Positions 45,338-46,513 of a DNA stretch of 64,000 bases are shown here, in pieces. How positions within the stretch are numbered: the stretch's first letter is position 1; every line of letters starts with the position of its first letter. The position numbers and the translations under genes are program-made. Below the pieces are notes generated by a model. It was not told the origin of the DNA, searched no databases, and worked only from the letters and a program-made list of their open reading frames with translations. Origin of the DNA: Bacteroidota bacterium (lineage in GTDB: Bacteria; Bacteroidota; Bacteroidia; Chitinophagales; Chitinophagaceae); assembly GCA_013288285.1 (NCBI GenBank), contig JABDCE010000003.1:1-64000 (forward strand), in the 5' to 3' direction.

Positions 45338-45589
45338 ATGAAATACACTGCGCAAATCAATGTAATGCCACTAAAAGAACTGCTGGACCCACAAGGTAAG
45401 GCAGTAAACACAAGCCTGCACAACCTGGGGCTGACCCATGTACAGGACGTGCGCATAGGCAAGCGCATATCTCTGAACATAGACGCTGCAACGAAAGAAG
45501 AAGCGGAAAAAATGACGCATGAAGCCTGTAAGAAATTGCTGGCCAACCCGGTGATGGAAGCATTTGATTTTACATTGACGGAAGGATAA
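45338..45589 (+). CDS. purS: phosphoribosylformylglycinamidine synthase subunit PurS
   Basis: 83 aa: INVMPLKELLDPQGKAVNTSLHNLGLTHVQDVRIGKRISLNIDA...ACKKLLANPVMEAFDFTL. Confidence 0.93.
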   Translation: MKYTAQINVMPLKELLDPQGKAVNTSLHNLGLTHVQDVRIGKRISLNIDAATKEEAEKMTHEACKKLLANPVMEAFDFTLTEG

Positions 45590-45745
45590 GGAACGATGAC
45601 AAAATAAAGTACACCATCTTGCTCGTTCTTTCCATTTTTGCTTCGTTGTAAACATCTTTAAATAGTGCACTATTCGCAGATTTTACGCCTCGCAAAAAAG
45701 AAAAATAACTTCGCAATATAATGTACTTTATTTTGTCAACGTTCC
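45590..45745. mobile_element. MITE-like element, ~156 bp, 24-bp TIRs, flanked by TAA
   Basis: Left end GGAACGATGACAAAATAAAGTACA (45590-45613) and the reverse complement of right end 45722-45745, GGAACGTTGACAAAATAAAGTACA, differ at one position; TAA on both sides (45587-45589, 45746-45748); no internal ORF; central palindrome aatagtgcactatt. Confidence 0.7.
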
Positions 45746-45801
45746 TAAGACCCGTTCATTCTATTCTTAGTTACTAAATTCCCATTGAGGGATATGCGTT
45801 T

Positions 45802-46513
45802 ATGCGGCTTTACCTGGTACCATCGCCAATAGGCAACCTGGGAGACATCACCTACCGTGCAGTGGACATACTGCAGAAGGCAGATGTGATACTGTGCGAA
45901 GATACCCGCAGCAGCCTGGTATTGCTGAAGCATTACCAGATACAGGGCCCGGTAAGCCCTTATCACCAGCACAATGAGCACAAAGTGCTGCCCCACCTGA
46001 TAGACCAGCTCCGCGACGGCAAAACATTTGCCCTGCTTACTGATGCCGGTACTCCCGGTATCTCTGACCCCGGTTTTTTGCTGGTGCGTGAATGTATACG
46101 CCATAACATACCGGTAGAATGCCTACCCGGCGCTACCGCTTTTGTGCCGGCGCTGGTACAAAGCGGCATCCCGTCCAACAGGTTTGTATTCGAGGGCTTT
46201 CTGCCGATAAAGAAAGGCAGGCAGACCATGCTGAAGCTGCTAGCAACCGAAGAGCGGACGATCATTCTGTATGAATCTCCGCACCGGCTGGTAAAGACAC
46301 TCCATGAGCTGGTCACCTTCTTTGGCGCAGACCGGCAGGCAGCTGTATGCCGGGAGCTGACAAAAATATTTGAGGAGACGAATAAAAATACTGTTGCCTT
46401 ACTGGCTGCCCACTATGAAAAAAAACCCACCCAAGGGTGAAATAGTGCTGGTAATAGAAGGCAATCCATTCAGGAAATCAGAAAGGGACACCTCTACAGA
46501 AGACGAAGAATAA
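45802..46513 (+). CDS. rsmI: 16S rRNA (cytidine-2'-O)-methyltransferase RsmI, apparent frameshift at A8 tract near 46418-46425
   Basis: MRLYLVPSPIGNLGDITYRAVDILQKADVILCEDTRSSLVLLKHY... is RsmI. Frame 0 stops at 46440 (EKKPTQG*), while the adjacent frame encodes PPKGEIVLVIEGNPFRKSERDTSTEDEE* to 46513. Confidence 0.9.

Follow-up and report, generated by a model that had tools for sequence, protein, structure and literature searches.

The window, i.e. the whole stretch of 64,000 nucleotides that was analysed, contains an inverted-repeat segment in the spacer between purS and a gene for an RsmI-like methyltransferase, and the locus raises the question whether this segment is a mobile element or a conserved structured RNA of the purS-rsmI region. 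Very probably it belongs to a family of bacterial MITEs, i.e. non-autonomous mobile elements, of ~157 bp that is spread through the genus; sequence comparison shows for this family further copies, precise empty sites, duplications of a 3-bp TWA target, apparently recent amplification in some genomes, and covariation along the entire hairpin.

An original prediction had read the segment as MITE-like, with 24-bp terminal inverted repeats (TIRs) that differ by one mismatch around 156 bp of non-coding DNA, an imperfect inward continuation of the repeats, a core palindrome, and TAA on both sides as a 3-bp target duplication. Direct reading of the sequence bears out this anatomy (Table 1); the inverted repeat runs on imperfectly to 34 nt with 88% identity, and the window copy and its reverse complement align from end to end (158 bp) with 75% identity. 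The span 45587-45748 includes both TAA copies, and the element proper lies between them. The left TAA closes the purS ORF, as had been claimed; the further statement that the insertion site supplies this stop holds insofar as the stop codon served as the target triplet, but in relatives the gene ended there before the insertion. For the inner 17-mer of the TIR, with up to 3 mismatches allowed, 0.27 occurrences are expected in the window and the TIR pair alone was seen, and chance is excluded for the element by its recurrence in the same genome with E-values down to 6.6e-50. The rsmI-like gene starts 53 bp past the right TAA. Near its 3' end (window 46410-46440) this ORF shifts frame in an A-run and ends at 46440, whereas the open frames of congeners continue further; the early end may reflect either a sequencing slip or a genuine frameshift.

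Table 1. Features of the purS-rsmI region in the window (TSD, target duplication).
Feature	Position	Strand	Remarks
Probable mobile element, 156 bp	45590..45745	+	Bounds from TIR and TSD; A at position 7 defines the left end
Left TIR, 24 bp, GGAACGATGACAAAATAAAGTACA	45590..45613	+	
Right TIR, 24 bp, TGTACTTTATTTTGTCAACGTTCC	45722..45745	-	One mismatch (7th base)
Left TAA, copy of the 3-bp target duplication	45587..45589	.	purS stop codon
Right TAA, second copy of the 3-bp target duplication	45746..45748	.	
Inner stem-loop core	45625..45710	+	Limits approximate; conserved in the family, with compensatory changes
Apical palindrome aatagtgcactatt	45661..45674	.	Closing pair covaries (GC/AT/TA/CG) among copies
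purS, 83 aa	45338..45589	+	PF02700 (Pfam PurS), E 1.1e-27; TAA stop is the target triplet
RsmI-like methyltransferase (tetrapyrrole methylase fold), downstream gene	45802..46440	+	PF00590, E 2.3e-31

Further copies, for which a search had been proposed, were found in the same genome and in its relatives. The genome itself (a freshwater Flavipsychrobacter-like MAG; 2.57-Mb assembly, 128 contigs, 58% complete) has about a dozen, with 72-87% identity, in both orientations, on different contigs, and flanked by TAA/TAA or TTA/TTA. A search of 100 relatives detected the family in 26 of the 34 genomes of the same genus, while one genome of another family matches weakly; several congeners have 10-16 copies, and those of genome G015 are ~92% identical to the window copy. 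In a pattern scan of named genomes, the MAGs with the family were those labelled Flavipsychrobacter, Chitinophagaceae and Bacteroidetes. Genome G028 contains 234 end-motif sites (up to 2 mismatches), many of them close to contig ends, which suggests a recent burst together with assembly breaks. The sample used for the family comprises 162 distinct copies with refined ends; at ~157 bp its members are AT-rich and, like the non-coding window element, have no conserved ORF. Plasmids gave no family match, and viral contigs gave no match to the core pattern and four solitary matches to the end motif, each lacking a TWA flank or partner, which are taken as chance. Solitary end motifs that lack a TWA flank were also seen near the starts or ends of ordinary genes (L327, L328, L333, L334, L336); these are either truncated remnants or an unrelated regulatory motif.

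Among the 162 distinct copies, the flanking triplets are TAA/TAA in 62, TTA/TTA in 44 and mixed TAA/TTA in nine, i.e. a perfect 3-bp duplication in 106; a second count, based on end-motif pairs, gave 101 TWA duplications and one TCA duplication among 145. TAA and TTA represent a single target seen from opposite strands, and the duplication therefore follows a 3-bp TWA rule, which may perhaps extend to TNA.

Empty sites were sought by a joined-flank search followed by alignment, and sites with a single TAA or TTA, as anticipated in the original prediction, were found for other copies. The site of copy L008 is empty in G017, which reads GTATTAACTAAGGAATATG with a single target triplet versus GTATTAA[element]TAACGAAGG in the filled locus; in wider context, G017 has ...TATTGTATTAACTAAGGAATATG... 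and the filled locus ...ATTGTATTAA[element]TAACGAAGGAATATG.... The site of copy L003 is empty in G025, where the locus reads through unbroken. At purS-rsmI itself, where most relatives have an empty spacer, no element is present in 26 congeners with readable purS, and a profile search of the congeners' loci returned a copy in G028 as the sole match (L069:2190-2347). The latter is an independent insertion of the family, with ends GGCATTGTTAA... and a TAA duplication of its own; it is placed ~20 bp further downstream than the window copy, and its ends differ.

The TWA target naturally hits TAA stop codons, and such insertions are the least harmful. With simple ORF calling, 93 gene stops face a copy within 400 bp; eight of these are the target duplication itself, and ten lie inside the copy, in which case the element contributes the final residues along with the stop. 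At L003, for instance, the gene ends with ...KENKER and a stop inside the element, and in G025 the frame stays open beyond that point; a PadR-type gene at L011 ends with ...NDDEISLAT and a new stop, which the element provides. The family illustrates how a TWA target allows landing on stop codons without harm to the gene.

As a mechanism we propose that a transposase encoded elsewhere, putatively of the DDE type and acting in trans, would recognise the paired ends (GGAACGnTGAynAAATAA...) and insert the element at a TWA triplet, with duplication of the triplet. At this locus the purS TAA stop would have been chosen as the target, and the gene would therefore have been left intact and the copy tolerated. 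In any transcript that runs across it, the element would fold as a single long hairpin between the purS and rsmI genes, possibly with RNase III processing or effects on mRNA ends, by analogy with the Correia/NEMIS and ERIC elements.

The family fold is a single long hairpin with three parts: an outer stem formed by the TIRs and ~4 bp, then an inner stem, and at the tip a stem that the palindrome closes. In an alignment of 49 copies, 35 of 58 pairs have changed on both sides with pairing kept; the 58 pairs hold 238 double-changed cells, versus a mean of 60.7 after shuffling (0 of 500 shuffles as high) and 31-54 in controls with slid partners. RNAalifold agrees with the covariation of the arms, a set of 126 unique copies gives the same picture, and the signal is strong in the core and the ends alike; the covariation of the apical closing pair is that of pair 81-86 in the 49 aligned copies and of pair 77-82 in the 126 unique copies. 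The ends vary between copies (GGAACG, GTGACG, GTGATG, GGAAGA, GTGTAG, GGCATT) and are matched within each copy, with the core still recognisable.

This covariation, together with a predicted fold of -49 kcal/mol for the window copy, would also suit a conserved structured RNA of the purS-rsmI region (attenuator, terminator or sRNA) that is not mobile, and the original prediction had named covariation as an observation that would speak for such an RNA. It is indeed present and strong, and to that extent the RNA reading is partly right, but it is a property of the whole mobile family and not of the purS-rsmI locus; being family-wide, it complements the MITE reading instead of displacing it. A locus-specific purS-rsmI attenuator is ruled out by the empty spacers of the 26 congeners and by the single-triplet empty sites elsewhere, and the same structure is found at >160 unrelated positions, which show target duplications and precise empty sites. 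Moreover, nothing in Rfam reached the gathering score (best 46 bits versus a gathering score of 100), and the sub-threshold matches were miRNA hairpins, as expected of any long hairpin. A non-mobile RNA is hence extremely improbable.

Two further explanations accept mobility and concern the upkeep of the hairpin, and with >160 diverged copies it becomes testable whether the transposase, selection on RNA or palindrome repair keeps bacterial hairpin MITEs as hairpins. Selection on a single-stranded hairpin (RNA or ssDNA, minus strand) might act because a folded strand is required by the transposition intermediate or transposase, or because transcripts that fold do no harm to the host or benefit it. 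We hold this, tentatively, as a real possibility: compensatory changes are found in the inner stem and apical loop, far from the ends, and an A.A mismatch at position 7 is retained in 97 of 126 copies while several internal loops are fixed, which argues that the arms were not simply copied onto each other. In addition, RNA folding favours the minus strand in 121 of 126 copies (mean -57.9 versus -44.1 kcal/mol), and among shared mismatches G.U on that strand is the more frequent (27 versus 15 types) while private ones are even (37:37); this is suggestive only, the copies being related and thus non-independent and the 27:15 contrast weak. A transposase that binds both ends would, however, also keep the ends alike, and orientation relative to tandem genes shows no clear preference (39 versus 26), contrary to a cis-acting minus-strand RNA. 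The alternative that the arms are kept complementary by palindrome-templated repair or template switching in replication, with no selection on structure, is somewhat unlikely; at many pairs, changes on both sides are far more frequent than changes on one side (e.g. UA 21 and GC 20, with almost no intermediates), and derivatives of 24-55 bp between TWA triplets show deletions across the palindrome, yet unrestricted correction between arms would erase the non-complementary positions that are conserved. That the element propagates via a folded single-stranded minus-strand hairpin, with a mobilising machinery that reads the fold more than the end sequence, such that ends drift while arms co-vary and insertion still yields the 3-bp TWA duplication, appears a distinctly remote prospect.

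For the preferred reading of a non-autonomous mobile family, a transposase partner sharing the ends is supporting and not required, as many accepted MITE families are without one. The full-length transposon with the same TIR that the original prediction envisaged was not found: searches of draft MAGs with four Pfam families and TIR scans gave no autonomous element with these ends, which is weak evidence of absence because draft MAGs lose multi-copy IS elements. The loci fetched for PF01609 and PF13586 (the latter in three genomes) included none with a TIR pair, and PF13340 (IS5-type) was present in none of 35 genomes and in none of the genus. Among the sites listed or fetched, the spacing of paired end motifs ranges over 25-470 bp and peaks at 157 bp, and no pair is IS-sized. 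Derivation from IS5/ISL2/IS1031 finds no support, as these searches gave no IS5-type transposase with a shared TIR, and neither does derivation from IS30, as the flanks of the IS30 transposases at three IS30-like loci (L340-L342) are free of the family TIR. An IS4-like gene beside an end motif (L132) was dismissed as a partner, this being a truncated copy that adjoins an unrelated transposase; single end motifs next to housekeeping genes (L162, L180, L190, L218, L225, L235 and others) were, upon a check for transposases, apparent truncated copies beside ordinary genes. The variation of the ends with a kept core is the opposite of what a simple internal-deletion MITE would have, and counts against the preferred reading.

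The family displays the attributes of MITEs, i.e. short (within 50-1000 bp), non-coding, AT-rich and multi-copy, with TIRs (pairs in 145 places) and target duplications, and is by its anatomy a hairpin-type bacterial MITE like ERIC, Correia/NEMIS and RUP. ERIC (IRU/RU-1) of enterobacteria is short, intergenic, high-copy and non-autonomous, with a whole-element hairpin, a target duplication and some copies at gene 3' ends (PMC2229807, PMC10969869); the Flavipsychrobacter family shares these features, a likeness of anatomy and not a claim of sequence relation, whereas ERIC belongs to another phylum and has TA-type termini and a 7-bp TIR in place of a 3-bp TWA target and a ~24-bp TIR. Correia/NEMIS of Neisseria (~107-155 bp, ~24-bp TIR, intergenic, transcript hairpins cut by RNase III; PMC2229807, PMC10969869) resembles the family in anatomy, i.e. 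size, TIR length, intergenic place and hairpin, but has TA termini, as opposed to TWA, and a known IHF site and promoters. RUP of Streptococcus pneumoniae is a small MITE for which IS630-Spn1 has been proposed as the partner, through a shared TIR and TA target (PMC2229807), in contrast to the triplet target and the lack of a detected partner in the present family. Both the TA dinucleotide target of ERIC, Correia and RUP and an IS630-type TA duplication are ruled out here, as the third base is also duplicated. A 3-bp 5'-TWA-3' duplication is the hallmark of eukaryotic PIF/Harbinger elements, with ANT in bacterial IS5 (PMC4482050); the TWA duplication is common to these and the family, and membership in PIF/Harbinger or IS5 is not supported, the genus having no PF13340 gene. 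Within the same phylum, BrickBuilt is an intergenic MITE with internal tandem units, IS5-like 12-bp TIRs and variable target duplications, and MITECca01 has been compared with ISCca4 of the IS982 family (PMC4596501, PMC9769881). The published BrickBuilt ends differ from those of the family. The segment had not been recognised as a named family, and the literature searched holds no earlier description; the family is apparently new as a family and ordinary as a kind, with the unusually clear co-variation of its arms as its most interesting feature, and adds a large, recently active group of hairpin MITEs to a genus of freshwater Bacteroidota.

Several copies carry internal modules or are reduced. 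In L007, L008, L011, L258 and L291, the region near the tip is replaced or extended by a second palindrome (TCCCGATAGCTATCGGGA and variants), so that the family carries nested palindromic modules; in L007, L221, L245, L251 and L275, a TCATTTGTCTCAGTGAGGGCTACGCCGTTCC-like module breaks the left arm at roughly one place; and in L279, L282 and L288 (G028), tandem ATTAACTGCCATAGCTTTAGCGAAGGCATGTT units are found in the right arm, numbering four or more in L279. Minimal derivatives, 24-55 bp in size, are hardly more than two ends (L325:2662-2686, L162, L211, G031:C71:51039-51093 and G015:C2:34943-34997), as though an internal deletion had taken out the hairpin, and those with flanks read (L325, L162, L211) sit between TAA or TTA triplets. 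Genome G101 (JAUIGE record; L217, L227, L253, L287, L290) harbors another kind of short element, whose end reads GGAACGATGACGAAATAA and which shows TWA duplications. These elements are 195-465 bp long and have a nearly identical left end and an unrelated interior, often with GACAAGCTCAGG-type palindromes, which points to a mobilising system shared with the family.
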